This document shows positions 1,961-19,382 of a DNA stretch of 64,000 bases, one piece after another (the stretch's first letter is position 1; each line of letters opens with the position of its first letter). The position numbers and the translations under genes were made by a program. The DNA is taken from the NCBI GenBank assembly GCA_004296775.1, contig RHGE01000005.1, positions 1 to 64,000 of the forward strand, given 5' to 3'. The stretch is from Marinilabiliaceae bacterium JC017 (GTDB lineage Bacteria > Bacteroidota > Bacteroidia > Bacteroidales > Marinilabiliaceae). The notes under the pieces are model-generated. The model saw nothing but the letters and a program-made list of their open reading frames with translations. It ran no database searches and was not told the DNA's origin.

Positions 1961-3346
1961 TCAATCACACTTATCTACCTTAGTTTTGTCTACCAACAAT
2001 TTATACTTCCCGTTTTTATCAGGCATGATGTTATCAACAATGTTCACGTTCCACGTTAATGCGTCTCCCAGGTAGTCGTTCAAATAACTGTCTAGTTTCG
2101 AAAGATCACTTTCATCAAAGGCATCCCCTACAACCAAATTAATCACTACCTGCCGTGCTCCGGTTTTCACCACCTGGTAGTGCTTCAGATCCCTGATATC
2201 ATTTAACAGAGAAGCTCCGAAAAAACTGGGAACAACCCAATGTCTGCCATCAGCTAACTGCAACATGTCAGATTCTCTCCCCGAGATGCTGCCAATCATA
2301 TCAAAAGGAACGGAACAAGCAGCTGTGCCAGGCCGCCCCATATCGCCGTTTTTGTACCTAATCAATGGCATAACATAATTCTCCAGATCAGTAATTAAAA
2401 GGGAAGCTTCACCAGTCTGACTGACCGAAGGTTCAAACTCCACGATGGCTTTGGGTGAAATGACATGATATTGCTGACAATAGCGACACTGAAAAGCGAT
2501 GCCGTTAATTTCCCGACAACCATACTCATCATATACCGGCCCAAGCATTTCTTCTATCACATGCCGCTGATAGGCATGCAGGTTCTCCGCCGTTGTCATC
2601 ACACATTTAACACGGGGAACTTCTAACCCTTCCCGCATTAAAAAATGGGCAAACAAATAGATGGCATTGGTATAGCCATCCAGGTAATCGAAGTTACCTT
2701 TCCTGAAAGTTTGATATAGATTAAACAATGTCCCCTTTTCATAAAGCTTATAGGCCGGAAACTTAACCTGGTTGAAAACCCATGATTTTATTTTAGATGA
2801 CACCCGGGTCCAAGAATGTTTTACGAAATGGCTGTTTCCCCATATATGCATCCCCCGCATACCTATTTTATATTCTCCCAAAGTCCACCCTAAAAGAATA
2901 GCAGCCTTACCGGACGAAAAAGCCTGTTTATCTTGTATAAACCGTACAGGTTTCCCTGTAGATCCACTGGAAAGTCCCCTAAATATTTTTTTCCCGTCGA
3001 TGCAGGATAAATCGGTCATCTCCTCCCGATGTTCCTGGATATCCTGCCGTGTTAAAGGAGGTAGTTTTTCCAGGTCTGAAATGATTGTCACCGAAAACGG
3101 GTCAAAACCTGCTTCCTGAAACCGTTGCTTATAAAACGGAATGGTTGATCCGGCATGAATTAACAGTTTTTTCAACTTTTCAACCCGCCAAACCTCCAAC
3201 TCATCTTTACTCCAGGTTAGCATGCGGGAATACTGATGGAAATAATGTTTTACATTCAACCCATTTCCTAAATCATATCCAGAAAGAAAAAAATGTTTAG
3301 CAATTTCCCGCCGGTAATTAGTATCGGTTCTTTTTCTATTCCCCAT
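1961..3346 (-). CDS. CapK/PaaK-like adenylate-forming enzyme of polysaccharide cluster
   Basis: Belongs to the phenylacetate-CoA ligase / CapK branch of the ANL superfamily, which activates a carboxylate with ATP. CapK-type members occur in capsule and exopolysaccharide loci, where their substrate is mostly unknown. The ATP-binding P-loop is clear: SSGSTGKP at residues 126-133. Downstream are YGCREINGIAFQC and CRYCQQYH, a Cys/His-rich patch often seen in this subfamily. The 461-aa length fits. It begins 8 bp after the upstream glycosyltransferase gene, so co-transcription is likely. It probably modifies or activates a precursor of the glycan; true CoA ligation is not established. Confidence 0.8.
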   Translation of the reverse strand: MGNRKRTDTNYRREIAKHFFLSGYDLGNGLNVKHYFHQYSRMLTWSKDELEVWRVEKLKKLLIHAGSTIPFYKQRFQEAGFDPFSVTIISDLEKLPPLTRQDIQEHREEMTDLSCIDGKKIFRGLSSGSTGKPVRFIQDKQAFSSGKAAILLGWTLGEYKIGMRGMHIWGNSHFVKHSWTRVSSKIKSWVFNQVKFPAYKLYEKGTLFNLYQTFRKGNFDYLDGYTNAIYLFAHFLMREGLEVPRVKCVMTTAENLHAYQRHVIEEMLGPVYDEYGCREINGIAFQCRYCQQYHVISPKAIVEFEPSVSQTGEASLLITDLENYVMPLIRYKNGDMGRPGTAACSVPFDMIGSISGRESDMLQLADGRHWVVPSFFGASLLNDIRDLKHYQVVKTGARQVVINLVVGDAFDESDLSKLDSYLNDYLGDALTWNVNIVDNIMPDKNGKYKLLVDKTKVDKCD

Positions 3347-3354
3347 GCTAATAT

Positions 3355-4566
3355 TTATTTAACAGAAAGCCCCATTGCCGACATCATCTGGTCATAAACC
3401 ACATTGCCTTTACTCTGCCAGGCATACTCTTTAAATGCAAATCCTGCACAATATGCTTTCAGCTCATCATTTTGATAGAACTTCTCGTAAATCTCCGTCA
3501 ATAAGACATCAGGATAACGATATAAATCAATCACCATTCCCAGGCCATTGGCTTCCACCACAGGCGCCAGGGTGTGTACATGAGGTGTACAGATAACCGG
3601 CAACCCGGAACCAATGTATTCAGTAAACTTTGTCGGAAACGAATGATGATTCAACGGCAGATCGTCCCGCAACATCAGCGCCACGTCGCCGGCCATCTGC
3701 ACCTGACAAAGCTCCTTTTGATTAAGACGGTTAATCATCCAGGCTGATTCCGGTATTTGATGACGCTCAATTTCTGCCAGAAATTTATCCGGCACGCTGG
3801 TGGTATTAATCATGAAAAAACTGTTGGGATACTTGCTATAAAACCGACTAAAGAAAGTCACCATCTCAGGTACCATTTGGTAACTGCGATCGGTACCTGA
3901 ATAGACAAAAACCAATTTATCCTCCAACTTAAACCACTTCCGGAAAGCACGGGCATCAGACTTTGAATAATTAAAAACATTGGCGTCGTAGTAATTGTAC
4001 TTTGGCAGGTAACTGATTTTTTCCGGCAAATCGGAAAACTGGTCCGAGACGGACGCCACCAAAGCTGACCGGCGGAAAATAAAACGCTGAATGTATTCAA
4101 AAACCTTCACCTGCCACAAAGGCCGTCCCTCCTTTTTAAGCTCATCCACCCGGTCTCCACGCATATCAAAAACAATCTTTGCGCGACCTAAAAAGCCAGC
4201 AGTACTAGCCAGAAATGCTCCCACATGGTTATAAGCATACACAACTTTGGGCCGATAGTGGATAAAAATAAAACCAATGCGGACGTTATTCAAGATAAAC
4301 TCCAACACCTGGTAGAAAGGTACGCCTCTGGGAAACCAGCGCTTTAGAAACACCAACTTCACTTGATGATCCAATCCTTTTTGTTTAAAATAAACATGGT
4401 TCCGTATTTTGTCCCTGTCGGTATTATTTAAAGAACAGAGAATAACTCTATACCCATCCCGAAGGAAGAAGGGCAAAAGGAATTCAAAAATATTCTGAAA
4501 ATTTCTGATTTTCTCCTTTCGGTAATAACTCACTGGAAGCAGAAATACAATGGATTTTTTTTGCAT
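3355..4566 (-). CDS. GT4-family glycosyltransferase
   Basis: A GT-B fold glycosyltransferase of 403 aa. The recognisable part is the C-terminal donor-binding domain: the segment FTEYIGSGLPVICTPHVHT, followed by an acidic/glycine stretch (VEANGLGMVIDL), matches the GT4 donor site, although the first glutamate of the usual E-x7-E is not obvious. The N-terminal half is less typical and starts with a hydrophobic strand (SIVFLLPVSYY). It sits 34 bp downstream of the GT2 gene and 8 bp upstream of the CapK-like gene, within one minus-strand transcription unit. It probably adds one residue of the lipid-linked repeat unit. Specificity is unknown. Confidence 0.8.
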   Translation of the reverse strand: MQKKSIVFLLPVSYYRKEKIRNFQNIFEFLLPFFLRDGYRVILCSLNNTDRDKIRNHVYFKQKGLDHQVKLVFLKRWFPRGVPFYQVLEFILNNVRIGFIFIHYRPKVVYAYNHVGAFLASTAGFLGRAKIVFDMRGDRVDELKKEGRPLWQVKVFEYIQRFIFRRSALVASVSDQFSDLPEKISYLPKYNYYDANVFNYSKSDARAFRKWFKLEDKLVFVYSGTDRSYQMVPEMVTFFSRFYSKYPNSFFMINTTSVPDKFLAEIERHQIPESAWMINRLNQKELCQVQMAGDVALMLRDDLPLNHHSFPTKFTEYIGSGLPVICTPHVHTLAPVVEANGLGMVIDLYRYPDVLLTEIYEKFYQNDELKAYCAGFAFKEYAWQSKGNVVYDQMMSAMGLSVK

Positions 4567-4600
4567 CTAATTGAGATTAGGTTTGAAACAATTTTTTTTA

Positions 4601-5551
4601 TTAAAAGTCAATGTTTGCCTTACCAGTTCGCCCCAACAAGCCATGCCACATGCCCAGATAATAATATTTTAATAGCCGGATCCCGGCCAACCGACGTCCC
4701 CACCTGAATTTAACAGGTAAAAACACAAACTCTTTAACCAAAAACCAGATCAAACCCGCATAGAAACCATTTTGCTTTAAAAATCGCACCTTATTACGCC
4801 GTGAATAATAATACTCAAAGCAATACCTTTCAAGGCTCCGCCTTCTTTTTCCATAAAAATGCCAACAACGCGCCAAACTGGTCACCCGGATTTTCCAACC
4901 CGATTGAATTACCCGGAAACATAAATCACGTTCATCCCCATACATGAAATTATCCTCATTCCACAATCCAACCTGTTGATATACTTCTCGTCGTATACAC
5001 AAAGCTGCTCCAGAGAGATAATTCCCCTCCAACTCTAACCGGAATTGATTGGGATTTTCGATCAACCGATTCTTAAACACATTCCGGGTAGATCCTAAAG
5101 CATAATTTGTAATGAGCTGAAAAAATTGTATCCGGTTTTCATACTGCCTATCAGTCCCACGAAAAATAACCGGTCCTATCATCCCTACTTGCGCCCCTTT
5201 GCGCATAGGTGTCAATAAATGTTCTATAAAAAACTCATCCAGTCGCAGGTCGGTATTGAGCATGATTAAAAAATCGGCTCCGTCTCCAAATGCTCGTTGA
5301 GCATTGTAATTGTGTCCCTTGGCAAAACCTTTGTTTGAAGGCGAATATTCTGCTTTAGCATCAGGATATAATGATTGTAATAAATCCATATTACCATCAA
5401 CTGAGGCACTATCCAGCACATATAGGGTAAAGTTCGTTACGCTTTGATTTTTCAGGCTTTCAACCAAACGGGGAATATGCTTCCGCTCATTGTGTAAAAC
5501 CAATGAAACAGCAATTTTTACATCCGTATGATTATCATTAACCTTCTTCAT
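4601..5551 (-). CDS. GT2-family glycosyltransferase (rhamnosyltransferase-like)
   Basis: A GT-A fold, family 2 glycosyltransferase acting on a lipid-linked glycan at the cytoplasmic membrane face. The nucleotide-sugar strand AVSLVLHNE is at residues 14-22, the metal-binding acidic motif appears as MLNTDLRL (97-104), and YGDERDLCFR (204-213) supplies the acceptor-side ED motif. The shape (about 316 aa, FMYGDE segment, basic C-terminal tail) resembles WbbL-type rhamnosyltransferases, but donor identity is inferred. The start ATG overlaps the stop of the upstream Wzy gene by four bases (ATGA), implying translational coupling. Confidence 0.88.
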   Translation of the reverse strand: MKKVNDNHTDVKIAVSLVLHNERKHIPRLVESLKNQSVTNFTLYVLDSASVDGNMDLLQSLYPDAKAEYSPSNKGFAKGHNYNAQRAFGDGADFLIMLNTDLRLDEFFIEHLLTPMRKGAQVGMIGPVIFRGTDRQYENRIQFFQLITNYALGSTRNVFKNRLIENPNQFRLELEGNYLSGAALCIRREVYQQVGLWNEDNFMYGDERDLCFRVIQSGWKIRVTSLARCWHFYGKRRRSLERYCFEYYYSRRNKVRFLKQNGFYAGLIWFLVKEFVFLPVKFRWGRRLAGIRLLKYYYLGMWHGLLGRTGKANIDF

Positions 5552-6972
5552 GATGTTTCCTCCTGATTAGTAGTTTTACCAATGGTATCATGAATTATTT
5601 CACTCTCACGTAAACGATAAAAAGCAGCCACCAATACCGCTGCAAAAAAATTGATTATCATGCGTCCATAATCCAGCTCTTTAAATAGGTAATTAGGCCG
5701 GAACAGAAATGTTTTCAACAAAAAGGCAAACACCATAAACAACATGGCTAGCTCCATACGATGCCTTTGTAAATAGGCACGGGACATGCGCCCTTTGACG
5801 AAACGGGAAACTTTGAGATAAATGGCAATAAACTGGAAATAAAAAAGCATGTAAACCAATAGCCCTACCACTCCAAATAAAGCCAGATGACCGGTTAATG
5901 GCAGATCGGCAACTTCGTAATCACTTTCATCAAACTTCAACGAGTAGTAATGTTCCATCCTGGCACCGGTTCCGAAATAGGGTACCTGACGAATGATGTC
6001 GAAGTGAGCTGGTATTTGATTATTCAATCTGCCCTCCTGTTTCCCGGAAGTATAAACCTGTCCGGTAACAAAACGGTAAAAATCATCACCTAACCGATAA
6101 GCCAAATCAAAATAACGAGGAAAGGTAAGGGTCAATACAGAGAAAAAGATCAAACCAACCACCAACACTTTTTGTATGGTTTTTACCACAGACATTCTGA
6201 ACCATTTAAACAAAAGGTACGCCGGCGCAGCTATCATGGCAGCCAACGTGAGGTACACACTCTTGGTTAATGAAAGAATGATGGCCACAAAAACCAGTGA
6301 TGCCGCCAGGTGCAAACTCCATTTATACCGATAGGGGACTTTGAAGATCAACACAAAAATGGATACCGGAATGATAAATTCAGAGATCCCGGTACTATAT
6401 AAGCTATAGCGCATAATACCGGAACCGGAATACCTTTCAAGCTGCATCACAGGCAGTAATTCTACATCAAAGATCAAGCCTGCCAAATAAACCAGATTCA
6501 CTCCCAGTGTGATAAAAACCCACATGTTCATAAATAAACTAAAGCTTCGCAAACAAAACACATAAGCCGGAATAAGTATCACAAATCCAAAAACATTCAT
6601 TCGTTCCCTCATAAGGAAATACCTCAGAAAGTAGTTTATATCATTACCAGACACAATGTAACCATACACCACCACGTGGTACACCAGAAAAATCAATTGA
6701 ACTCCGAGGATCCATTTAAAATATTTGTCTTTAAACAATGCTGACTTATCAACCTTAGACGAAAAGAACGGCACAAAAGCCAACATCAGAAAAATGTCTT
6801 CGAAATAAATCCCTCCTAATGCAGCCTTACTCATGTTTACTTTAAAATAGCCACTGGGATCAAAGAGTAATAACAGAAACAACCAAAAGAAAAAATCTGG
6901 CTTTTTCATTATCAACCATAGCATAAAACCACCGGTCACCAGAGCTAATAATATTACCAGCCATTCATTCAT
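5548..6972 (-). CDS. O-antigen polymerase / ligase-like membrane protein (Wzy type)
   Basis: A 474-aa integral membrane protein with ten or more hydrophobic segments spread along its length and a long periplasmic-type loop at about residues 290-355, the layout of Wzy polymerases and WaaL ligases. These enzymes join repeat units or attach the glycan to a carrier in the periplasm. The loop contains GRLNNQIPAHFDIIRQVPYFG, a position where this family has conserved Arg and Gly residues. Between a flippase gene and a GT2 gene, polymerase is the more likely role than ligase. Sequence alone does not separate the two. Confidence 0.75.
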   Translation of the reverse strand: MNEWLVILLALVTGGFMLWLIMKKPDFFFWLFLLLLFDPSGYFKVNMSKAALGGIYFEDIFLMLAFVPFFSSKVDKSALFKDKYFKWILGVQLIFLVYHVVVYGYIVSGNDINYFLRYFLMRERMNVFGFVILIPAYVFCLRSFSLFMNMWVFITLGVNLVYLAGLIFDVELLPVMQLERYSGSGIMRYSLYSTGISEFIIPVSIFVLIFKVPYRYKWSLHLAASLVFVAIILSLTKSVYLTLAAMIAAPAYLLFKWFRMSVVKTIQKVLVVGLIFFSVLTLTFPRYFDLAYRLGDDFYRFVTGQVYTSGKQEGRLNNQIPAHFDIIRQVPYFGTGARMEHYYSLKFDESDYEVADLPLTGHLALFGVVGLLVYMLFYFQFIAIYLKVSRFVKGRMSRAYLQRHRMELAMLFMVFAFLLKTFLFRPNYLFKELDYGRMIINFFAAVLVAAFYRLRESEIIHDTIGKTTNQEETS

Positions 6973-6998
6973 CCCTTATTCTTTTTATTTAAATGCCG

Positions 6999-8465
6999 TT
7001 ACCCTATTATTCTGTCTTTTCCCAGCTTCACCATCTTAACAACCTGTTTCACTGAAATCAACCTAAAAAGAAATGGAAGGGTGATACCTGCACAACTTAA
7101 AACAAGGTAGTACCACCATCTCAATTCAACTAAGTTCAAGTATTTACACAATGGAATCAACGATCCTATGAAAAACATCAAGAAATAGAACACAAATATC
7201 TTGAGGTAATTATAATCGATGGGCATATACCGGTGAGAAACCCATATTTTCAATCCCCAATAAATCAGAAATGAAAAAAGAGTGGTGATAGCTGCCCCCA
7301 AAAAGCCATAAAGAGGTATCGCTATAAAGTTCAATCCAATATTGACAAGCGCACAAACAATAGTAATCCACGTAAAATGCCAGGTTTTTTCAGCAATAAC
7401 AATTCCAGGTCCCATCAGCTGGTACGATTGCGCGGCAATATGGGCGAAAGTGAGAAAAGAAACAGCCACTGCACCCGGCATGTAGTCTTTGGTGGCAATG
7501 AATCCAACTAATTCAAAACTAAAAATAGAGATTATAACAGCCACCACACTTGTTATTCCCAGGTACAAATCATACATCTTGACAGCAGCTTCCCGCGACT
7601 CTTCCTTAAATTGATCTTTATCCCTAAAGAAAGTCTCCATAAACAATACCCCAAAACTCATCTGAACGGCCATATTAATAAACAACACAGGTTGCGAAAA
7701 AGTGCTTCCGATAGAATATTTCCCAATTTCATCTAATGTAGAATAGTGAAGCAGGAAAAACCGATCAGATACATTGAGCACCCACACGGCAATCGCAGAC
7801 CAGATAAGGGGAAATCCAAATTTCAGCATTTTAATAGCCCACTTCCAACGAAATTTGAAACTGTATTTCTTTCGGCTAAATGTTAAAAAAGATACTGCCA
7901 CTACAATGGTGCTACTAATCAATCTGGCTGAAAGGGAACCATTCACTCCATATCGCAATACAACAACAAGCCCAATTCCCAAAAGAATATTGGTGATTGA
8001 TTTTAGCAGAATCAGAAAACTGAATTTCCAGGGATGTTTATACAACCTGTAAAGACGTGTTTGTTCAGACATCATCAGATTAACCGGAATTAATGCTAAA
8101 GCCAGGGCTACTGCTAATTTATATTCACTTGTTTGAAATAATAAAAAAGAAAGGTTTTCATGAAACACTAGAAGGACTAAAGCGGGAATAAACATGAAAA
8201 TACGAATAACAAAAAGGGTATATATAATATCGCGCCGCTGGTTTTTTGCTTTAAAAAAATAGAAACCCCCGGCCGTTTCCAATCCCAGTCCCAAAACTGA
8301 AGTAACTAACATGGTCATCGTCGAAAGAGAATCCAACACCCCAAATTCGCCAACGGTTAAAGCTCGCGTATAGAATGGCAGAAGTAAAAATCCAAGTAGT
8401 TTTTTAATGCCACTACCTAAACCATAAACAAGAGAATCCTTGACAAATTTTTTATTAATACCCAT
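6999..8465 (-). CDS. Polysaccharide flippase (Wzx/MATE-like, MOP superfamily)
   Basis: Moves lipid-linked oligosaccharide units across the inner membrane. The protein has 488 aa and about 12-14 predicted membrane helices. The N-terminus (FVKDSLVYGLGSGIKKLLGFLLLPFY) is the classic first helix of polysaccharide biosynthesis flippases, with TRALTVGEFGVLD after it. This is the first gene of the minus-strand cluster, so the cluster promoter should lie in the roughly 300 bp between it and the metK terminator; I could not point to a clean promoter there. A second, unrelated-looking flippase lies at 16000-17319. Confidence 0.88.
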   Translation of the reverse strand: MGINKKFVKDSLVYGLGSGIKKLLGFLLLPFYTRALTVGEFGVLDSLSTMTMLVTSVLGLGLETAGGFYFFKAKNQRRDIIYTLFVIRIFMFIPALVLLVFHENLSFLLFQTSEYKLAVALALALIPVNLMMSEQTRLYRLYKHPWKFSFLILLKSITNILLGIGLVVVLRYGVNGSLSARLISSTIVVAVSFLTFSRKKYSFKFRWKWAIKMLKFGFPLIWSAIAVWVLNVSDRFFLLHYSTLDEIGKYSIGSTFSQPVLFINMAVQMSFGVLFMETFFRDKDQFKEESREAAVKMYDLYLGITSVVAVIISIFSFELVGFIATKDYMPGAVAVSFLTFAHIAAQSYQLMGPGIVIAEKTWHFTWITIVCALVNIGLNFIAIPLYGFLGAAITTLFSFLIYWGLKIWVSHRYMPIDYNYLKIFVFYFLMFFIGSLIPLCKYLNLVELRWWYYLVLSCAGITLPFLFRLISVKQVVKMVKLGKDRIIG

Positions 8466-10402: not shown

Positions 10403-10474
10403 GGTCCCTTCGTCTAACGGTTAGGACGTAAGATTTTCATTCTTGAAATAGGGGTTCGATTCCCCTAGGGACTA
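10403..10474 (+). tRNA. tRNA-Glu (UUC), copy 1
   Basis: The acceptor strands GGTCCCT and AGGGACT pair with a terminal G-U. The anticodon loop TTTTCAT gives anticodon TTC, and the T arm is GGGGTTCGATTCCCC. CCA is not encoded. The copy is identical to the two downstream copies over the full gene. Confidence 0.97.
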
Positions 10475-10506
10475 CTAAAAAAGGTACTAATTATATATCA
10501 AGAAAG

Positions 10507-10758
10507 ATGGCAAATCATCAGTCAGCAAAAAAGAGAATTAGACAGATTGAGAAGAGAAGACTTCATAACAAGTATTACGCAAAAAGTGCACGTAATGCAG
10601 TTAAGCAGTTGCGCTCAACTACTGATAAAACTTCAGCTCAAGAACTGTATCCAAAAGTAGTTTCAATGCTGGATAAATTAGCCAAGAGAAATATTATTCA
10701 CAAAAATAAAGCAGCAAACTTAAAATCTAAGTTAGCTGGTCACATAAACAAGCTATAA
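10507..10758 (+). CDS. rpsT: 30S ribosomal protein S20
   Basis: Small basic 16S-binding protein that helps early 30S assembly. The 83-aa sequence opens with [18 protein letters not shown] and has the S20 pattern of [10 protein letters not shown] and a lysine-rich helix ([20 protein letters not shown]). Start and length agree with the family. It lies between tRNA-Glu copies 1 and 2 and shares their promoter, so the mRNA must be released by tRNA processing on both sides. The flanking gaps (32 and 14 bases) leave little untranslated sequence. Confidence 0.97.
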
Positions 10759-10772
10759 CAGCAAAATTACCT

Positions 10773-10844
10773 GGTCCCTTCGTCTAACGGTTAGGACGTA
10801 AGATTTTCATTCTTGAAATAGGGGTTCGATTCCCCTAGGGACTA
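10773..10844 (+). tRNA. tRNA-Glu (UUC), copy 2
   Basis: Base-for-base the same as copy 1, including the few bases after the discriminator. It begins 14 bases after the rpsT stop codon. Anticodon TTC; CCA not encoded. Confidence 0.97.
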
Positions 10845-10905
10845 CTAAGCATCTTTTAAACACAGAAGATGTTTTAAAGGTGAGTTGTATAGTTATTTAT
10901 TATTT

Positions 10906-10977
10906 GGTCCCTTCGTCTAACGGTTAGGACGTAAGATTTTCATTCTTGAAATAGGGGTTCGATTCCCCTAGGGACTA
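10906..10977 (+). tRNA. tRNA-Glu (UUC), copy 3
   Basis: Third identical copy, 61 bases after copy 2 and followed at once by a strong terminator. Anticodon TTC; CCA not encoded. Confidence 0.97.
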
Positions 10978-10980
10978 CAT

Positions 10981-11009
10981 AACACCTCCTCAAAAGGGAG
11001 GTGTTTTTT
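10981..11009 (+). terminator. Intrinsic terminator of the tRNA-Glu/rpsT unit
   Basis: The stem ACACCTCC/GGGAGGTGT around a short A-rich loop is followed by TTTTTT, three bases after the third tRNA. A near-consensus promoter (TTTG 11007-11010, TATCTTTC 11027-11034, 16-base spacer) follows and may drive radC and the genes behind it. Confidence 0.9.
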
Positions 11010-11055
11010 GTATTTTATCGTTTCATTATCTTTCTTAACTTAAAGAGAAAAATTT

Positions 11056-11754
11056 ATGAGCGATTACCAACATCTCCGCATAAAAGAATGGGCCCTTGAA
11101 GACCGCCCACGCGAAAAGCTACTTGCAAAAGGTATTCAATCATTATCTGATGCCGAACTACTTGCCATTCTTATTGGCTCAGGTTCTCAAAAAGAGTCTG
11201 CTGTAGACTTGGCTAAAAAAATTTTAAAAGATACTTCTTTCAACCTAATTGAACTTGGTAAAGTCTCCATCAATCAATTGAAATCGACCTATCATGGCAT
11301 TGGAGAAGCCAAAGCCATCACAATCGTTTCGGCCCTTGAACTTGGCCGAAGACGAAAGTTCAGTGAATCAATTATTCGGTCTAAAATTACCAGCAGCCGT
11401 GATGTATTTTATCAATTTCAACCTTCAATAGGAGATCTCCCACATGAAGAGTTCTGGATACTCCTTCTCAATCGGTCAAACAAAATCATTTCACGCCTCA
11501 AATTAAGTCAGGGTGGAATTTCCGGAACTGTTATCGACGTACGTTTAATCATGAAAAATGCAATTGAAAACCTGGCTACCTCCATTATATTATGTCATAA
11601 TCATCCTTCAGGAAACCTACAGCCCAGTGAAGCTGACTTAGCAATTACAAAAAAACTTAAAGAATCCGGAAATATCTTAGACATACCGGTATTAGATCAT
11701 ATTATTGTTACAGATCATGGTTATTATAGTTTCGCAGATGAAGGATTAATATAA
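11056..11754 (+). CDS. radC: RadC-family JAB/MPN-domain protein
   Basis: A member of the RadC (UPF0758) family. The MPN/JAB metalloprotease-like core has the zinc motif HNHPSGNLQPSEAD (181-194), preceded by the conserved HEEFW at 130-134. The N-terminal third has a helix-hairpin-helix-like stretch (YHGIGEAKA, 79-87). The historical DNA-repair role is not well supported for the family and the biochemical function remains unclear. It is the first gene of a tight plus-strand run with only 5 bp to the next gene, so it appears co-transcribed with the surface-glycan genes. RadC genes are also frequent on mobile DNA. Confidence 0.93.
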   Translation: MSDYQHLRIKEWALEDRPREKLLAKGIQSLSDAELLAILIGSGSQKESAVDLAKKILKDTSFNLIELGKVSINQLKSTYHGIGEAKAITIVSALELGRRRKFSESIIRSKITSSRDVFYQFQPSIGDLPHEEFWILLLNRSNKIISRLKLSQGGISGTVIDVRLIMKNAIENLATSIILCHNHPSGNLQPSEADLAITKKLKESGNILDIPVLDHIIVTDHGYYSFADEGLI

Positions 11755-11759
11755 CAAGA

Positions 11760-12659
11760 ATGGCTTTAAATCACTTAAAATATGATGAAATAAACCGTTT
11801 GAAATGGGATTCCTGCATTCGACAAGCCTTTAATGGAATAACCTATGCCTACTCCTGGTTTCTGGATATTGTCTGTGATGAATGGGAAGCTCTCGTAGAA
11901 GACGATTACCTAACCGTTATGCCACTTCCGATCAAAAAAACCTGGGGAATCCCCATGATATTTCAACCATTTTGGGCTCACCAGCTGGGAATATTCTCAA
12001 AGGCGCAGATGTCTCCAGAAAAAACCGAACTATTCCTAGAAAGCATTCCTTATAAAAATGTATCCATAATGCTAAATGCATATAACCGACTTCCTTCCTC
12101 TTCCTTAAAAAAACACACACAGGAAATGACATATGGGGCAATTGATTTAATCTCGTCGTACAGTGCAATTCAGAAGGTCCTCACTCCAAAAATCAGCAAT
12201 AAAGTATCCATTGCAAAAAAACACAGCATTTCTGTTTCCAGATCAATTGACGCAAATGAGTACATTCAATTCAAAAAACAACAAAAAACAAAGGGATGGA
12301 ATCCGGCAATAGTCAAACGAATTATCTCCTTCTCTACTAGATACAAAAGTGCCGGAACCTATGGTGCTTACAACAGACATAACGAATTAATCGCACAAGC
12401 ATTCTTCATCAAATCAAATCAACGCTTATTACTAATTGATACCGTGGCCTCTGAGGAAGGAGAAAAGAAAGCTGGGTTATATGCAATCATTCTTCATGTA
12501 ATAAAAAACAATGCAGAAACAAACCTCACTCTTGAATTTCCGTATTCCGATCAAGCATTAAGTCGAAACTTCCAGCAAACTTCGCATCACTTTTTACAAT
12601 ATAAAAAGGGAATTGGACGTTTATTGGATGGGTTATTCAAACAGAGATATTACTTATAA
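11760..12659 (+). CDS. FemAB/GNAT-like protein, paralogue 1
   Basis: A 299-aa cytoplasmic protein resembling the FemAB-like/GNAT-fold proteins found in Bacteroidota polysaccharide loci. No signal peptide or membrane segment. The N-terminal half has the WDSCI..AFNGITYAYSWFLD and MPLPIKK features shared with the gene at 13565-14467, and the C-terminal half looks like an acyl-CoA/tRNA-type GNAT core (GAYNRHNELIAQAFFI). In this copy the C-terminal FEGS segment of its paralogue is replaced by LEFPYSD. The likely role is transfer of an acyl or aminoacyl group to a glycan or lipid-linked precursor; no substrate can be named. It ends in a TAATG overlap with the deacetylase gene. Confidence 0.65.
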   Translation: MALNHLKYDEINRLKWDSCIRQAFNGITYAYSWFLDIVCDEWEALVEDDYLTVMPLPIKKTWGIPMIFQPFWAHQLGIFSKAQMSPEKTELFLESIPYKNVSIMLNAYNRLPSSSLKKHTQEMTYGAIDLISSYSAIQKVLTPKISNKVSIAKKHSISVSRSIDANEYIQFKKQQKTKGWNPAIVKRIISFSTRYKSAGTYGAYNRHNELIAQAFFIKSNQRLLLIDTVASEEGEKKAGLYAIILHVIKNNAETNLTLEFPYSDQALSRNFQQTSHHFLQYKKGIGRLLDGLFKQRYYL

Positions 12660-13561
12660 TGTCAAAAATAAATTACATTCTACCTTTTTACCACGCTGTA
12701 AGCGATGAACAACTTCCTCATTTGAGGCATTTATTTCTGGTAAAGAAGATAATTGATTTTAAGAAGGACCTTGATTTTTTCTGTTCTAAATATCAACCAG
12801 TATCTCTTGAAGAATTTTATAATCTGGCTAGAAATGGGTTTCATTCATTAAAAAAGCCAGTTTTTCATTTATCGTTTGACGATGGATTACGTCAGTGTTA
12901 TGATATAATTTTACCTATTTTAGAAGCCAAAGGCATTCCAGCGACCTTTTTTATTAATTCAGGTTTTATCGATAATAAAGATCTATTTTTCAGGTTTAAA
13001 GCTTCAATAGTGATAGATAAATTACACAAAAGAGGCATAAAGAACAAGAAAGATCAAAGAGAGATTTTACAATTGAACTATCACCAAAAAGATAGTTTTG
13101 AAAGCTTGGCAAAAAAATTCAATATTGATTTTGATGTTTATTTAAACCAAGCAAAACCGTATCTAGATCTAATACAACTTAAAGATATGAAATCGAGAGG
13201 ATTTTCCATAGGCGCTCATAGTATTGACCATCCTGAATTTAGATTTCTGGAAATGGATGAAAGAATTCGGCAATTACAGTTGTCAATGCAATACATCTGT
13301 GAAAAGTTTGATTCTCCAGTAAAAGCGTTCTCCTTTCCTTTCACTGATTATAAGATGACCCAAACCTTTTTTAGAGAAATTAAAAAACTTGAGCTATCGG
13401 ACATTTCCTTTGGTACTGCAGGGATAAAAGAAGATTACGCGAAAATGAACTACCAACGAATACCAATGGAAACAATGTATTCAGGAAAACTAACCTATTT
13501 TTATCAGTTAGTTAAAAGCAAAATAAGAGCAAAATTAGGGATTAATATAGTTCAAAGATAA
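12659..13561 (+). CDS. Polysaccharide deacetylase family protein (NodB domain)
   Basis: A carbohydrate esterase family 4 type protein predicted to remove N- or O-acetyl groups from a sugar polymer or precursor. The NodB motif 1 LSFDDG is at residues 71-76, and the metal-binding HSIDH at 187-191 provides the two histidines, so the active-site set looks complete. The protein is 300 aa. No signal peptide is evident, so it may act in the cytoplasm on a precursor or the N-terminus may be atypical. It is translationally coupled to the upstream FemAB-like gene (TAATG) and 3 bp before the next one. FemAB plus deacetylase recalls exosortase-linked polysaccharide loci, though no exosortase was seen. 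Confidence 0.85.
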   Translation: MSKINYILPFYHAVSDEQLPHLRHLFLVKKIIDFKKDLDFFCSKYQPVSLEEFYNLARNGFHSLKKPVFHLSFDDGLRQCYDIILPILEAKGIPATFFINSGFIDNKDLFFRFKASIVIDKLHKRGIKNKKDQREILQLNYHQKDSFESLAKKFNIDFDVYLNQAKPYLDLIQLKDMKSRGFSIGAHSIDHPEFRFLEMDERIRQLQLSMQYICEKFDSPVKAFSFPFTDYKMTQTFFREIKKLELSDISFGTAGIKEDYAKMNYQRIPMETMYSGKLTYFYQLVKSKIRAKLGINIVQR

Positions 13562-13564
13562 TTC

Positions 13565-14467
13565 ATGAATATAAAAACAATAAATGGATCGCAAATAAGG
13601 TATTTAGAAAGACACGAAATAAATGATAAAAAATGGGATGCTTGTGTAAATAACTCAATTACTCCTTTAGTTTATGGATTAACCTGGTATTTAGATAATT
13701 GTTGCGAGAAATGGGATGGAATTATTTTAGGAAATTATGATACTATTATGCCAGTACCTTTAAAAAATAAATTTGGATTTCAGCTTGCCTTAACTCCATA
13801 TTTTATTCAGAAATTGGGAATTTTTTCTTCAAACCCAATAACTCAAAAAACCGTTAATTCTTTTTACAATTTGGTTCCTGCGAAATTTTTTTTTATAAAT
13901 ACAGTATCAAATTATATTCCTAAAATAACATTAAAAAAAATCACCCTATGTCCTGATTACGAATTACTCTTAGATCGACCCTATGAAAGTATTTATAGAA
14001 ATTACTCGTCCCATTCAAAATATAATGTTAGACGAAGCCTAAAAGAAAAATTAAAATTTGAATCAACTAATGACATTGAGTGGTTTAAAACTTTTGCGAA
14101 TAAATATAGACGTTTTTATTTGCCAGAAAAAGAAAAAGCCAGTTTAGGACAAATACTAAAATCTGCCTTTGAAAAAGGGTGTGGTCATATCGTAATATCC
14201 AAAAATTTAGAAAATCAAATTAATGCCGCTATTTTCCTCATTATCTACAACAATACAATATATTACCATTCTCCCATTTCAACCCCAGAAGGGTATACGC
14301 AAAGAGCCCTATACTTTTTACTTGATTCTATTATTAAAAAATATTCAAATAGTGGGTATATAATAGATTTTGAAGGTTCAAAAATTGATAATATTGCTCG
14401 CTTTTTTAAAGGTTTTGGAGGTACTCTAAATTACTATACTCAACTATCAATGATTAAATTATACTAG
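13565..14467 (+). CDS. FemAB/GNAT-like protein, paralogue 2
   Basis: A 300-aa paralogue of the gene at 11760-12659, sharing KWDACV, LTWYLD, MPVPLK and the IFS segment near residue 95. The C-terminal GNAT part is more typical here, with IIDFEGSKIDNIARFFKGFGG near 270-290. That segment is common in Bacteroidota GNAT/FemAB-like proteins of unknown function. It is probably an acyl- or aminoacyltransferase of the glycan module. The gene is markedly A/T-rich. Its stop is directly adjacent to the next ATG, so co-translation is likely. Confidence 0.68.
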   Translation: MNIKTINGSQIRYLERHEINDKKWDACVNNSITPLVYGLTWYLDNCCEKWDGIILGNYDTIMPVPLKNKFGFQLALTPYFIQKLGIFSSNPITQKTVNSFYNLVPAKFFFINTVSNYIPKITLKKITLCPDYELLLDRPYESIYRNYSSHSKYNVRRSLKEKLKFESTNDIEWFKTFANKYRRFYLPEKEKASLGQILKSAFEKGCGHIVISKNLENQINAAIFLIIYNNTIYYHSPISTPEGYTQRALYFLLDSIIKKYSNSGYIIDFEGSKIDNIARFFKGFGGTLNYYTQLSMIKLY

Positions 14468-15238
14468 ATGTATATAATAAAGAAACTCTACCAAACAATA
14501 GTTCCCGAAAAAATAAGAATGTCATTATGGAAGAAATATTACAAGTATACTTCTTTTTTATTTGGCCCAGGAGATAAATATCACTGTAACATTTGTAATA
14601 AATCATTTCGTCGATTTCGATCACATGGGATAATTAAACGAAATAATGCAAAATGTCCTTATTGTTTATCTTTAGAACGAACCAGACTCTTATGGTTCTA
14701 TTTAGATAAAGAAGTGAATATTACTGATAAATCATGGAAAATTCTACATGTAGCACCAGAAGAAGGACTAAAAAACAGATTAAAAAAAATTAATTCCTCA
14801 CATTACTTTGATATAGATATAAATCCCACTTGTGCATACATTAAAATGGATCTGACCGACTTAAGATTTCAAAAAAACTTTTTTAATTTAATTATTTGCT
14901 CTCATGTCTTAGGCCATATAACCAATGAAGGAAAAGCCTTATCAGAAATTTTCCGCGTATTAGACAAATCTGGCATTGCTTTAATAATGACCGTCTTAAG
15001 CGAACGTGAATCAACTTTTGAAAATATCAATATAATTTCCAGAAAAGAACGCATACAAAATTTTGGCGAACCAGATTTAGTTCGACTACATGGAAAAGAT
15101 TTTCCTGAGCGGCTTAAACTAGCCGGCTTCAAGGTTGAAGAAATAGATTATAGGATAAATCTAGGAAGGGATAATTGTGAAATATTTTCACTTGGAGATG
15201 GAAAAAGAGAGAGAATTTTTAAGTGTAGCAAGCGATAA
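14468..15238 (+). CDS. SAM-dependent methyltransferase with N-terminal zinc ribbon, copy 1
   Basis: The N-terminal part has CNIC (40-43) and CPYC (63-66), a four-cysteine zinc-ribbon pattern, followed by SLERTR (68-73). A class I methyltransferase domain follows, with ILHVAPEEGL as an unusual motif I, an acidic DIDINPT strand, and ICSHVLGHI as motif IV. Broadly related proteins occur in bacterial polysaccharide loci, but their acceptors are not established. The 256-aa protein has no signal peptide. It is followed 6 bp later by a clear paralogue, so the pair arose by tandem duplication. It probably methylates a sugar or lipid-linked precursor. Confidence 0.78.
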   Translation: MYIIKKLYQTIVPEKIRMSLWKKYYKYTSFLFGPGDKYHCNICNKSFRRFRSHGIIKRNNAKCPYCLSLERTRLLWFYLDKEVNITDKSWKILHVAPEEGLKNRLKKINSSHYFDIDINPTCAYIKMDLTDLRFQKNFFNLIICSHVLGHITNEGKALSEIFRVLDKSGIALIMTVLSERESTFENINIISRKERIQNFGEPDLVRLHGKDFPERLKLAGFKVEEIDYRINLGRDNCEIFSLGDGKRERIFKCSKR

Positions 15239-15244
15239 TATAAC

Positions 15245-16003
15245 ATGATACGTAGAATATACCAATTTCTTTTCAGTGCTAGATTAAGATTAAAAATTAA
15301 AAAGAAGCGAATATGGTTGCTTTCTATTTTATATCATGGTAATAAATATAGTTGTAATATTTGCGGCAAAACTTCAAGGAAATTTATTACTCACGGTCAT
15401 ATCCCAAGAAAAAATGCACGTTGCCCTAATTGCTTATCCCTTGAAAGAACTAGAGTTCTTTTGTTCTATTTAGAAAATGAGATAAATATAAATCATGAGA
15501 ACTTAAAGATACTGCATTTTGCTCCTGAACCTGGACTAGAAGAAAAATTACGAAAAATTCCAACCAATAAATACATAACTGCAGATATAAATCCAGAAGC
15601 AGCAGATATTCAAGTTGACATTATTGACATCCCCTTTATAGATAATAGTTTCGACCTGATCATATGTTCTCATGTTTTAGTTGAAGTACCTGAAGAAATT
15701 AAGGCATTAAAAGAGTTAAGAAGAGTAGTTAATAAGCATGGTTGTGTTTTGTTAATAACACAAATATTTAACAATCAACTCACTGATAACTTACCGATGT
15801 ATATGCATAAAAAAGAAAGAGAGAAAACTTATGGCGCAAATATTTGCCGAACTCATGGCATTGATTTTTCTTCTATTGTTGCACAAACTGGATTTAACGT
15901 TGAAGTTATAGATTATCGGCATGTATTAGGTAGTGAAATGATTAAAAAATATTCGCTTGGGGCAGGAAATTTTGAAACTATTTTCAAATGTAGCAAAAAG
16001 TGA
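15245..16003 (+). CDS. SAM-dependent methyltransferase with N-terminal zinc ribbon, copy 2
   Basis: Paralogue of the preceding gene, 252 aa. Cysteines fall at 37, 40, 60 and 63 (CNIC and CPNC), followed by SLERTR. Motif I is ILHFAPEPGL, with DINPEAAD and ICSHVLVEV behind it. The two copies align over their whole length, including the FKCSK C-terminus, but differ at many positions, so the duplication is old or the copies diverged quickly. Two specificities in series, for example two positions on one sugar, would explain keeping both; that is inference. The stop codon overlaps the GTG start of the flippase gene by four bases. Confidence 0.78.
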   Translation: MIRRIYQFLFSARLRLKIKKKRIWLLSILYHGNKYSCNICGKTSRKFITHGHIPRKNARCPNCLSLERTRVLLFYLENEININHENLKILHFAPEPGLEEKLRKIPTNKYITADINPEAADIQVDIIDIPFIDNSFDLIICSHVLVEVPEEIKALKELRRVVNKHGCVLLITQIFNNQLTDNLPMYMHKKEREKTYGANICRTHGIDFSSIVAQTGFNVEVIDYRHVLGSEMIKKYSLGAGNFETIFKCSKK

Positions 16004-17319
16004 TTAGAAGCGTTATCCATACTATTGGTGCAAAAAGCACAGAATCCATAATTAACTTCCTATTTGCCTGGATATGTTCTTTTTACCTAGGAAGTAATAC
16101 ATATGGAGAAATTACACTTCTGGCTTTAATTGTATTTTTTATTTCCCAAGCTAATGGAATCATTACTGGCAACTCATTGCTTTATTATTCTTCTAAAGCA
16201 TCTAAAAAATCCTTGTTTATCATTTCATTTACATGGATTATCATCATCGCAATCTCATTGCTAATCACTATTTCTTTTTTAATGGAGCAGACACTTATGA
16301 GCTCCATCAATAAGGATACTATGTTGATTATTCCTTTATTAGTATCATTAACATCTGCTGTCGCAGTTTTTCAGAATTATTTATACGGACATGAACTTAT
16401 TTTTAAAGCAAATTATTTCAATATTCTATTGGCTTTATTCAAATTGGTTGTTATTACTATATTAACAGTTGGTTATCGACTATTAAATATTTGGGCTTAT
16501 ATTTTTTCCTTCACAACGGCATATTCACTTGTTTTCATTGCACAATTAATCGTTGTTATAAGAATAAAAACAGATCCTAACAATATATCTATTCATTCAT
16601 GTAGAGTTCTTATAAAAAAAATGTTTACTTATGGAATACCTATGCAAACCAGCCTAACTATTCAAGCTCTAAATCAGAGAATAAGTTATTTCTTTATTTC
16701 ATCATTTTTAACAACCTCCCATTTAGGTGTTTTTAGTTTAGGTCTACAAATTACGGAAAGTTTAAAAATGGTTGGCATTAGTATTTCTGATGTGCTTCTA
16801 ACTAAAATTGCGAATACCAAAAGCAGTAAAAAGAATATTCATTTAACTCTTAAATCCTTTAAATTTGTTAGTATAATTACCATGTCTGGGATACTACTAT
16901 TTCTTTTTCTTCCAAACAGTCTTTTTATTTTCTTATTTGGAACAGAATATAAATGCTTAAAACAAATCATTTTGTCGTTATTACCAGGATTGTTTTTTAA
17001 CTCTACTCTACTTACTCTTATTCAATTCTTTAATGGAAGCGGAAATCCAAAAATTAATTTTTACATTTCAATATTAGGCATAATCATTATATCCAGCATT
17101 CAAATTCCTCTAATGAATCATTTCCAAATCATTGGAGCTGGCGTATCAACTTCTTTTATGTTTGCAATTTCGTTTATAATTGGAATTAAATTCTTCCTTA
17201 AATACACAAATATAAAATCTAAAGTACTAGTCCCAAAGAAAGAAGATTTTTTTGAAATTTTATCCCTAGCTTATAAAGTGTACGTCAAGTTAAAAATTAA
17301 CCATGAAAAAACTAGATAA
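16000..17319 (+). CDS. Polysaccharide flippase-like membrane protein (MOP superfamily)
   Basis: A 439-aa protein with about 12-14 hydrophobic helices, in the layout of Wzx/MATE-type exporters of lipid-linked glycans. A GTG start is used: GTG at 16000-16002 overlaps the upstream TGA, and the conserved first helix follows directly (AKSTESIINFLFAW). The central region MFTYGIPMQTSLTIQALNQRISYFF matches the typical mid-protein start of the second flippase half. It is the only obvious membrane component of this plus-strand module and differs strongly from the flippase at 6999-8465, so the window encodes two separate exporters. The last 17 bases overlap the next gene. Confidence 0.8.
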   Translation: MIRSVIHTIGAKSTESIINFLFAWICSFYLGSNTYGEITLLALIVFFISQANGIITGNSLLYYSSKASKKSLFIISFTWIIIIAISLLITISFLMEQTLMSSINKDTMLIIPLLVSLTSAVAVFQNYLYGHELIFKANYFNILLALFKLVVITILTVGYRLLNIWAYIFSFTTAYSLVFIAQLIVVIRIKTDPNNISIHSCRVLIKKMFTYGIPMQTSLTIQALNQRISYFFISSFLTTSHLGVFSLGLQITESLKMVGISISDVLLTKIANTKSSKKNIHLTLKSFKFVSIITMSGILLFLFLPNSLFIFLFGTEYKCLKQIILSLLPGLFFNSTLLTLIQFFNGSGNPKINFYISILGIIIISSIQIPLMNHFQIIGAGVSTSFMFAISFIIGIKFFLKYTNIKSKVLVPKKEDFFEILSLAYKVYVKLKINHEKTR

Positions 17320-18109
17320 ATTAAATACTTCACAAAGCAAAAAGCTTTTCAACAAAAAAAAATCCATCCCAATTAAATCATCAACGTTAAAGCTAATTTT
17401 TCCATATTACTCTAAACTTATATGTGGAAAAAAAGAGAAACTATATTTAATATTGGGAATTATAAAATCTGCTTCCGAAATAACGATCCTGAATAACACA
17501 GCAATAATACGGGTGAATTTTATAGCTCATCAATTTGGCCCCAAACCAGGCCAACAATGGATAATAAAATTCCCTAAACTATATCAAGAACTTTCATTGA
17601 ACTACAATCTATATATTCCTAAATCATTTGACTTTAATAAAGAAGGAAAACTCCCTGGTCTGGCAGGTGGAAAACCACTTGGAGGTGGAGATATTCCAAC
17701 AGGATATAATGGTTGGAGTTCAAGAATGATGTTTCTAAAAGGAGGAAAGCTTTGTGTGTATCTATATCATTATAAAATGAAGACAGAATTTGGAAGAATG
17801 CTATTGCTTCACAAATCAAACAGCAAGCCTTATTTACTACAAAAGGACAGTTGGATTAACATTAAACAATCGATAAGACTTAATAGCATAAATAATTCAG
17901 ACGGCAAGGTCATTATATACATAAACAACAAGCAAATGTTGAAAGTGGACAATATCTGCTTTCGAAAAACAGAAAAGCTAAATATCGATAAATTAATCTT
18001 CTCATGCTTTATAGGCGGAGATAAAATAGGTTCTGGTCCAGACAATCAAACATTTCTATGTTTCAACAATTTCCAATTGTCGCAAGATCATCGTAGTTTC
18101 GAAAAATAA
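17303..18109 (+). CDS. PL14-like (alginate-lyase-type) jelly-roll protein
   Basis: A 268-aa protein with a predicted beta-rich fold. Residues 115-123 (GKLPGLAGG) and 138-144 (WSSRMMF), with YLYHYK at 153-158, match the conserved block of polysaccharide lyase family 14. In that family the lysine of the GKLPGL segment is important for cleavage of uronate polymers. No signal peptide is visible; the N-terminal 45 residues are lysine-rich. A lyase-type protein inside an export operon could trim the polymer, set its length or release it, but catalytic activity is unproven and a binding role is possible. It overlaps the flippase gene by 17 bases. Confidence 0.65.
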   Translation: MKKLDKLNTSQSKKLFNKKKSIPIKSSTLKLIFPYYSKLICGKKEKLYLILGIIKSASEITILNNTAIIRVNFIAHQFGPKPGQQWIIKFPKLYQELSLNYNLYIPKSFDFNKEGKLPGLAGGKPLGGGDIPTGYNGWSSRMMFLKGGKLCVYLYHYKMKTEFGRMLLLHKSNSKPYLLQKDSWINIKQSIRLNSINNSDGKVIIYINNKQMLKVDNICFRKTEKLNIDKLIFSCFIGGDKIGSGPDNQTFLCFNNFQLSQDHRSFEK

Positions 18110-18119
18110 GATTCTATTT

Positions 18120-18710
18120 ATGAAATTATTTAAGTACTTATTTGATCGTTTTGACCAGAATATATTTCGATGGTTAGTTAAGTTTATATATCCTCAATAT
18201 AAAAGACCTCGAACTGGTTACATGAAGCATTACAAGGTATTGTATCAGTACTTTTTCATGCAAAAAATAATGGGTTTTAATAGGCTTGTTCCATGGCCTG
18301 TAGATTTTAGAAGTAAAATATTAGGTTGGAAGCATATTGAAAAAGGAATTATTTGCGATCCTGGAGATAATCCGGGAATATACATCAATGCTTTTGGAGG
18401 ATTGAAATTTGGAGATAACGTGGAATTAGGCCCAAATATTACGATTGTTACAACGAACCACTACAAATACGATCAAAGAAAAATTTCTAACACAACAGGC
18501 ATAAAAATAGGTAATAATGTGTGGATTGGAGCAAATTGTGTAATTTTGCCGGGATCTATTATTGGGGATGAAGTTACAATAGGAGCCGGATGCGTTATTT
18601 CTGGTGAAGTACCATCAAAATCTACTGTTGTAAGAGGTGATAATAGCATTAAAATAATCCCTAAGACGAAAGATTACGAATGGGATATATATAAAGAGAG
18701 ATTAACTTAA
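18120..18710 (+). CDS. Hexapeptide-repeat O-acyltransferase (LbH family)
   Basis: A left-handed beta-helix acyltransferase of 196 aa, likely adding acetyl or another acyl group to a sugar. The hexapeptide repeats run from about residue 95 to 165 (IGNNVWIGANC, IIGDEVTIGAGCVISG). The probable catalytic histidine is H114 in TTNHYKYD, the usual position in maltose/galactoside-type acetyltransferases. An N-terminal region of about 70 residues rich in aromatics may help membrane association. It closes the glycan module, 10 bp after the PL14-like gene and 18 bp before upp. Confidence 0.88.
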   Translation: MKLFKYLFDRFDQNIFRWLVKFIYPQYKRPRTGYMKHYKVLYQYFFMQKIMGFNRLVPWPVDFRSKILGWKHIEKGIICDPGDNPGIYINAFGGLKFGDNVELGPNITIVTTNHYKYDQRKISNTTGIKIGNNVWIGANCVILPGSIIGDEVTIGAGCVISGEVPSKSTVVRGDNSIKIIPKTKDYEWDIYKERLT

Positions 18711-18728
18711 ATACACATTTCAACATAA

Positions 18729-19382
18729 ATGGAAATAAAAATATTCAATCAACACAACACACTTTTCAACCGTTTTATTGCCGAAATACGGGATGTAAAT
18801 ATTCAACATGACCCGATGCGTTTTCGTCGAAACCTGGAGCGTATGGGTGAAGTCTTTTCTTATGAAATAAGCAAGGTGCTTCCTTATCAGGAAGCTGAAA
18901 TAACCACCCCACTTGGAACTGCCAAGGAAATGTTACCAGAGAGTAATGTGGTAGTTGCTTCCATATTGCGGGCCGGACTTCCGCTTCATCAGGGTATTCT
19001 GAATTATTTCGACCGTGCTGAAAATGCATTTGTTTCAGCCTACAGAAATTATAACGACGACGGGGATTTTGAAATTCACATTGAATACATCTCCTCCCCC
19101 TCTTTGGATGATAAAATTGTTCTTTTAAGTGATCCCATGCTGGCAACCGGGAATTCAATGGAGTTAGCATACAAAGCACTACTGAAAAAAGGAAATCCTA
19201 AACACGTACACGTTGTGGCTATCATCGCCAGCCAAGCTGGCCTTGACTACCTAAAAACCGTGTTGGCAGATGAACCTGTTACTTTGTGGATTGGTGCAGT
19301 AGATGCAGAATTAAATGCCAAATCATACATTATTCCAGGATTAGGAGATGCAGGGGACCTGGCATACGGAACCAAACTTTAA
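18729..19382 (+). CDS. upp: Uracil phosphoribosyltransferase
   Basis: Salvages uracil with PRPP to UMP. The PRPP-binding loop DPMLATGNS is at residues 135-143, ILRAGLP is at 79-85, and the uracil-binding C-terminus GLGDAGDLAYGT is intact. The 217-aa length is typical. Only 18 bp separates it from the acyltransferase gene, so this housekeeping gene appears to be read through from the glycan module, or uses a promoter inside it. Its base composition is less A/T-rich than the genes just upstream, consistent with a boundary here. It converges with folK and overlaps its end by 4 bases. Confidence 0.97.
   Translation: MEIKIFNQHNTLFNRFIAEIRDVNIQHDPMRFRRNLERMGEVFSYEISKVLPYQEAEITTPLGTAKEMLPESNVVVASILRAGLPLHQGILNYFDRAENAFVSAYRNYNDDGDFEIHIEYISSPSLDDKIVLLSDPMLATGNSMELAYKALLKKGNPKHVHVVAIIASQAGLDYLKTVLADEPVTLWIGAVDAELNAKSYIIPGLGDAGDLAYGTKL

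Follow-up and report, generated by a model that had tools for sequence, protein, structure and literature searches.

The 64,000-nucleotide window analysed here (Marinilabiliaceae bacterium JC017, assembly GCA_004296775.1, contig RHGE01000005.1, positions 1 to 64,000 of the forward strand) contains at 11056-19382 a run of ten genes bordered by radC and upp. With about an even chance of being right, we read this locus as one version of an exchangeable radC-upp glycan cassette, which would perform the late steps for a lipid-linked amino-sugar glycan without encoding glycosyltransferases (GTs) of its own. The locus is real and more than ordinary: it can be swapped, carries decoration and export genes but no GT, probably includes a step that caps a sugar with an amino acid, and links a lyase unexpectedly to a flippase. 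The gene content, synteny, variability of the slot, recurrence in relatives, predicted FemX-like fold, and fusion of Wzx with a domain of polysaccharide lyase family 14 (PL14) are observed or computed directly, while the substrates, the order of steps, the amino acid donor, the GT partner, the location of the PL14 protein, and the product and its use belong to our proposal. The NodB-type deacetylase (pdeac) would free an amine, which the FemX-like product of gnatB would cap with an amino acid taken from an aminoacyl-tRNA. The methyltransferases (mtA and mtB) and the hexapeptide acetyltransferase (hexa) would add further groups before Wzx flips the decorated product across the membrane. The PL14 protein would work next to Wzx on the cytoplasmic side, its substrate probably containing uronic acid, and the GTs would be supplied from elsewhere, perhaps including a GT4 whose relatives adjoin the module in Carboxylicivirga.

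The listing of open reading frames (ORFs) confirms the layout described in an earlier, sequence-only reading of this DNA: ten tightly packed or overlapping genes on the forward strand, at the positions that reading had given. The intergenic distances from radC to upp are 5, -1, 3, 0, 6, -4, -17, 10, and 18 bp, and the Pfam scan found no GT or polymerase among the ten genes, again as had been described, and no initiating transferase (Table 1). In the same scan, gnatA gave no match and gnatB a match below the cut-off, while mtA and mtB both have a C-x2-C...C-x2-C pattern with zinc-ribbon matches under the cut-off. The description of the entire radC-to-upp interval as A/T-rich has to be narrowed to 12.66-18.71 kb. 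G+C is 27.7-32.5% in the seven genes from pdeac to hexa versus 41.4 ± 2.4% in 45 other ORFs of the window, and it is higher in gnatA (37.1%), radC (38.1%), and upp (41.7%).

Table 1. Features of the radC-upp locus and its left-hand neighbourhood in the window, with the basis of each assignment.
Feature	Coordinates	Strand	Basis and remarks
tRNA-Glu, rpsT, tRNA-Glu, tRNA-Glu	10403..10978	+	conserved left flank, outside the module; rpsT identified by eye
radC	11056..11754	+	PF04002, 2.7e-43; conserved left border of the slot
gnatA, FemAB-like, of a family-type clade that lacks the F-x2/3-F-G motif at the C-terminus	11760..12659	+	tree and motif count
pdeac, NodB/CE4-type deacetylase	12659..13561	+	PF01522 (Polysacc_deac_1), 1.3e-17; PDB deacetylase matches; SFDDG and HSIDH motifs
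gnatB, FemX-like, proposed aminoacyl-tRNA-dependent transferase	13565..14467	+	predicted model and structural matches
mtA, methyltransferase with CxxC...CxxC N-terminal part	14468..15238	+	PF08241 (Methyltransf_11), 2e-9
mtB, methyltransferase with CxxC...CxxC N-terminal part	15245..16003	+	PF08241, 1.1e-9; 46% identity to mtA
wzx, MOP-type lipid-linked glycan flippase	16000..17319	+	PF13440, 9.6e-8; Polysacc_synt/_3, about 1e-7
PL14-domain protein	17303..18109	+	PF21294 (Polysacc_lyase_14), 1.9e-29; 103.4 bits versus a cut-off of 27
hexa, hexapeptide acetyltransferase	18120..18710	+	PF00132, 6.1e-13
upp (uracil phosphoribosyltransferase)	18729..19382	+	PF14681, 1.4e-38; conserved right border; synteny upp-folK-sppA-lpxK-pnp
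separate glycan cluster	246..8465	-	GT4, 461-aa protein, GT4-like below cut-off, GT2, Wzy_C, Wzx

Comparison with related genomes revealed that the interval between radC and upp is variable in the Marinilabiliaceae, the host family of the locus. Of the 80 genomes compared, this one included, all but one yielded radC (79), and its surroundings were taken from 77 relatives. The slot counts use 39 rows (31 in the family and 8 outside), comprising the window and 38 of these 77 loci; in the remaining loci a border could not be recognised within one stretch. Gene labels in the relatives come from a simple ORF script (at least 90 amino acids, aa) with HMMER seeds and are not annotations. The genes that flank the interval, metK, tRNA-Glu, and radC on the left and upp, folK, sppA, lpxK, and pnp on the right, are widespread in the family. 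Between them, 11 of the 31 family genomes, window included, hold a glycan cargo of 6.6-10.7 kb, 15 hold just one or two FemAB-like genes, and 5 hold no cargo (3-148 bp). With an interval that varies between recurring flanks, the radC-upp site is thus a place where glycan genes are exchanged. Inside the module of the window, the observations do not refute the earlier reading; yet nine of the ten other slot cargoes carry a GT (in G026 by script label only), the one without being that of G016 (L013). Separately, the script labels paired FdtA-like genes in eight of these ten cargoes (L002, L004, L014, L015, L016, L017, L019, L022), accompanied in six of the eight by a DegT-type aminotransferase.

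The GT-free arrangement is found again in relatives. A series of deacetylase, gnatB, tailoring genes, Wzx, and acetyltransferase, followed by upp or folK and with no GT on its strand, is present in L013, L079, L227, and L228 as well as in the window, a recurrence that makes the arrangement more than chance. The tailoring genes vary, with two CxxC-type methyltransferases in the window, an FkbM-type and a CxxC-type methyltransferase in L079 and L227, and an AMP-ligase with GNATs in L013 and L228. The earlier idea of a GT-free module for glycan tailoring and export is upheld by a layout that recurs in four relatives and by a content related to FemAB and deacetylase systems; three of these relatives have a divergent GT4 alongside. 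This GT4 adjoins the deacetylase in L079, L227, and L228; in L084 a GT4 adjoins gnatB, and the same GT4 group stands in one run with a DUF7033 gene and a FemAB-like gene in five named loci. The sole match to these GT4 relatives in the JC017 genome, 43% identical and located on contig C190 at 1.1 kb from the contig end, is a candidate partner of the module. As a side observation, L080:9255-13317 (G029) holds a set of AMP-ligase, IspD-like, FemAB-like, and CxxC-type methyltransferase genes with no GT in the set, the first two being named by eye.

The capping step would depend on the FemAB-like proteins, relatives of which are encoded in 54 of the 80 genomes, this one included. For the named genomes we considered the best 80 of 252 stretches, counts including loci cut by contig ends. 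Among these 80, the gene run with the FemAB-like gene also holds DUF7033 (46), upp (31), radC (28), a pdeac homologue (10), or a WecB-type epimerase (8). The profiles of gnatA and gnatB are related (hhalign probability 100), and the gnatB profile matches FemX with an E-value of 0.0019, only FemX matches falling below 0.01. In a quickly built tree of 123 rows, gnatA lies in a 16-row clade (support 100) with 14 family rows and one outside row, and gnatB in a 12-row clade (support 96) whose other 11 members all belong to the family; in eight of these 11 cases, no other gene lies between radC and upp. A C-terminal F-x2/3-F-G motif is present in gnatB and in 108 of 134 other rows and in none of the 14 family rows of the gnatA clade, many of the 26 other rows without it being further copies of the gnatA group. 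Lacking the motif, gnatA might serve gnatB as a partner that is altered or has no catalytic role.

The AlphaFold model of gnatB, generated from 53 sequences, has a predicted local distance difference test (pLDDT) score of 92.9 and displays a double-GNAT fold. Its best structural matches are Sba18, FemA, FemX, and Sbb17 with Z scores of 21-23 (FemX 21-22.5 over 277-279 residues), followed by MprF-type proteins at about 16 and coenzyme A (CoA)-dependent GNATs at 15 and below. As the best matches are aminoacyl-tRNA-dependent transferases, the predicted fold leads us to favour deacetylation followed by aminoacylation of a sugar by pdeac and gnatB, as proposed for VimE and VimA (see below). A review describes Orf11, of the GNAT-fold class that gnatB matches, as a Gly-tRNA-dependent enzyme that attaches glycine to streptothrisamine, an amino sugar (PMC12945691).

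Several observations weigh against this reading of the cassette. The aminoacyl-tRNA assignment of gnatB rests on fold similarity at 11-15% identity, gnatB was flagged as a long branch, so that its placement in the quick-build tree is less sure, and 2HQY, a Bacteroides thetaiotaomicron protein of unknown function, ranks between the FemX-type and the MprF-type matches (Z 17.3). L038, one of the six units of pdeac and gnatB closed by upp or folK, holds a GT4 inside. The hexapeptide protein of L013 is a distant relative only (68 bits), and hexa of L079, a locus in which the ORF script called the opposite strand, is matched only over positions 92-199 of 199 and may be incomplete. Finally, the C190 GT4 is connected with the module by its neighbourhood in relatives alone, its own neighbours on the side of the contig end being out of view.

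Two alternatives concern what the module makes and for which glycan. Were gnatA and gnatB acyl- or acetyl-CoA-dependent N-acyltransferases, the module would make an ordinary N-acyl sugar variant. FemAB-like proteins and CoA GNATs do have a common fold, glucosamine N-acetyltransferases score Z 13 against the gnatB model, and an AMP-ligase stands with small GNATs in the sister module L013 and, by homology label, in L228. We consider this unlikely, though by no means negligible, as the aminoacyl-tRNA-dependent enzymes outrank the CoA enzymes by 6-8 Z units and FemX provides the sole gnatB profile matches under the threshold given above. Also unlikely in our judgement is that the module decorates and exports the glycan of the cluster at 0.2-8.5 kb, in which case a single pathway for a capsule or O-antigen would be divided between the two loci, with metK, the tRNAs, and rpsT in between. 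This cluster brings a GT4, a GT4-like protein (below cut-off), a GT2, Wzy_C, and Wzx to within 3 kb of radC; however, the left cluster and the module each have their own Wzx, and their G+C differs (38-44% versus 28-33%). The contig starts at window base 1, left of the cluster. Its 461-aa protein (window 1961-3346) gave no Pfam match up to E 0.001 and by eye resembles a CapK/PaaK-like adenylate-forming enzyme.

The origin of the block was weighed in the same way. Two or three copies of tRNA-Glu lie upstream of radC in 26 of the 28 loci that were scanned, and ten of these are slots that hold no glycan cargo. The 3' end of tRNA-Glu, with up to three mismatches, occurs in the window only at its three tRNAs, with no att-like repeat, and the Pfam scan found no integrase among the ten radC-upp genes. 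The earlier suggestion of lateral acquisition next to tRNA-Glu is not borne out: slots free of cargo are preceded by the tRNAs as well, the tRNA end has no att-like repeat, and gnatA and, less surely, gnatB group with family rows. A recent import of the block as a genomic island at tRNA-Glu appears very unlikely, despite the low G+C of the seven genes and the divergence of gnatB, whose highest identity (35%) is to a row outside the family; low G+C is also seen in other cargoes of the slot. The sequences are better explained by exchange among family members than by import, and hexa is 75-80% identical to Marinilabilia copies. We give least weight of all to the view that these glycan genes are only loosely assembled and decaying, with no joint pathway. 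The content is exchangeable, gnatA lacks the C-terminal motif, PL14 is in two pieces in G042, and hexa of L079 is matched in part; but the ten ORFs are open and tightly packed, the gene order recurs in other genera, and catalytic-type motifs are kept. Within 10980-19400, repeats are short and diverged (among the 20 largest direct families and the 25 longest inverted pairs), and the promoter and terminator scans did no better than shuffles. The Bacteroidota-type promoter pattern was found three times versus 4.9 expected, one of the three preceding the first tRNA-Glu.

The cassette reading also includes, as its most unusual part, the association of a flippase with a PL14 domain. The order wzx-PL14-hexa is observed in the window and in two Marinilabilia genomes (G032 and G044), where it forms a three-gene set apart, among genes that seem unrelated by eye. 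Copies of hexa that adjoin wzx and PL14 elsewhere share 70-80% identity with that of the window. In G178, from another family of the order, L182:8342-10474 encodes a 710-aa Wzx-PL14 fusion with hexa directly after it; the N-terminal part is Wzx-like (E 4e-45 with a profile of six flippases of these loci) and the C-terminal part is PL14 (E 6e-35). The hydrophobicity scan found no hydrophobic stretch in the window PL14, and by eye the Marinilabilia copies are without an evident signal sequence, unlike the PL14 of L085. The window protein aligns with 5GMT and 3A0N at K, SxR, and YxY (GKLPG, SSRMMF, and YLY), and we take these K, S, R, Y, and Y positions to be the PL14 active site. If the ends of Wzx proteins face the cytoplasm, the PL14 domain would be cytoplasmic as well; the link seems to place this domain at the flippase, tied to the exporter inside the cell.

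The distribution of these genes in part speaks against such a link. hexa (E ≤ 1e-45) was found in 14 of 71 family genomes, this one included, and only three of these have wzx-PL14-hexa. Five have wzx-hexa without PL14 (G038, G004, G022, G028, and G013), while in the remaining genomes hexa lies in a pdeac-gnatB unit (G831, G824, and G027), next to upp at a contig edge (G014), at a contig edge (G015), or without an adjoining wzx (G042). hexa (E ≤ 1e-50) is present in 2 of 395 genomes of the phylum, namely this one and G522, and PL14 (E ≤ 1e-20) in 11 of 393 genomes of the order, this one included. Among five other PL14 genomes inspected, PL14 is fused to Wzx in G178 and shows no wzx beside it in G229, G049, G084, and G051. 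Pfam recognised no flippase domain in the 710-aa fusion, the window Wzx is not close to its Wzx part (blastp E 0.014), and the single-sequence model of PL14 (pLDDT 32.9) is useless. At the G022 site, PL14 seems to have been gained or lost, because the genes on either side agree in length and order with those around the PL14-bearing site. A wzx-PL14 pair with PL14 in two overlapping pieces was seen at L094:9421-11494 (G042).

A speculative and rather improbable extension of the link would make the cytoplasmic PL14 protein an editing or length-control partner of Wzx, which would trim or inspect a lipid-linked glycan, aminoacylated and containing uronic acid, ahead of its export, the acetyltransferase marking what may pass. 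If true, a polymer-degrading lyase family would gain a new use and glycan export a new checkpoint. The fusion of a lyase domain to a flippase offers a directly testable case. The slot itself represents a fixed chromosomal address where one bacterial family swaps surface-sugar cassettes. The comparison would further link a broad range of Bacteroidota loci to the amino-acid-capped sugar chemistry of two oral bacteria, and if our reading of the cassette holds, aminoacyl-tRNA-dependent sugar capping would be commoner in the phylum than described. In the parts of the open-access literature consulted, we found no report of this radC-upp locus or of a flippase-PL14 link.

Among known pathways, the module comes nearest to Wbp/Vim (the deacetylase VimE, the aminoacyl transferase VimA, the GT VimF, WbpS, and the Wzx protein PorS). 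In Porphyromonas gingivalis and Tannerella forsythia, VimE, a putative deacetylase, is proposed to remove an N-acetyl group, after which VimA would attach serine or glycine, the product being the sugar that links cargo of the type IX secretion system (T9SS) to lipopolysaccharide (PMC7468200). VimF is named as the likely GT in another text (PMC13086638), and the T. forsythia genes appear in the former as VimF BFO_2565, the epimerase BFO_2566, and VimA BFO_2568 (PMC7468200). As in that pathway, a CE4-type deacetylase adjoins a FemAB/GNAT-type protein in the module, which also has Wzx, and AsnB-like genes occur in the sister modules L013 and L038. In contrast, the window module has no AsnB-like, GT, or Wbp gene and has two methyltransferases, PL14, and a hexapeptide transferase in addition. 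A model of the T9SS C-terminal tail has 62 matches in this genome and also matches 2 of 14 control genomes.

The JC017 genome encodes one DUF7033 gene, on another contig. The runs of DUF7033 and FemAB-like genes counted above (L099-L178, eight with the epimerase) are candidate VimE-VimA pairs across the phylum, the suggested kinship of DUF7033 to VimE coming from gene order. DUF7033 was also considered as a CE4 enzyme, but its profile did not match that of pdeac, and no PDB chain matched it at E-values of up to 1. A search of the loci for a vim-recA layout by RecA motif found RecA in one locus (L069), where it does not adjoin a FemAB-like gene. In G522, from another family of the class, AsnB-like and hexa genes are convergent with FemAB-like and DUF7033 genes (L187:1-3546).

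Other systems resemble the module in part. The predicted fold of gnatB is like that of FemABX proteins, including Sba18 and Sbb17, with their PDB entries containing streptothrisamine, at the Z scores given above; the low identity of gnatB and the motif-less C-terminus of gnatA set them apart. PL14 lyases such as the alginate lyase AkAly30 (5GMT) and vAL-1 (3A0N) have the PL14 domain and the K, SxR, and YxY residues in common with the window protein, which differs in having no evident signal peptide and in adjoining a flippase, or being fused to one in L182 (PL14 background in PMC8618178). The XrtA/PEP-CTERM exosortase loci share the FemAB-like and deacetylase genes and, in some relatives, an AsnB-like gene or AMP-ligase; the NCBIfam scan gave no match to TIGR03019, the XrtA FemAB model, up to E 0.1, and none of the ten radC-upp genes is an exosortase. 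With Wzx/Wzy capsule and O-antigen clusters, the module has the flippase and tailoring enzymes in common, and most other cargoes of the slot have a GT as these clusters do, whereas the module itself has no GT, polymerase, or initiating transferase. Although NodC is absent from the module and the families differ, its mode of working is, by analogy only, that of the rhizobial nodA, nodB, nodS, and nodL genes, which deacetylate, re-acylate, methylate, and O-acetylate.

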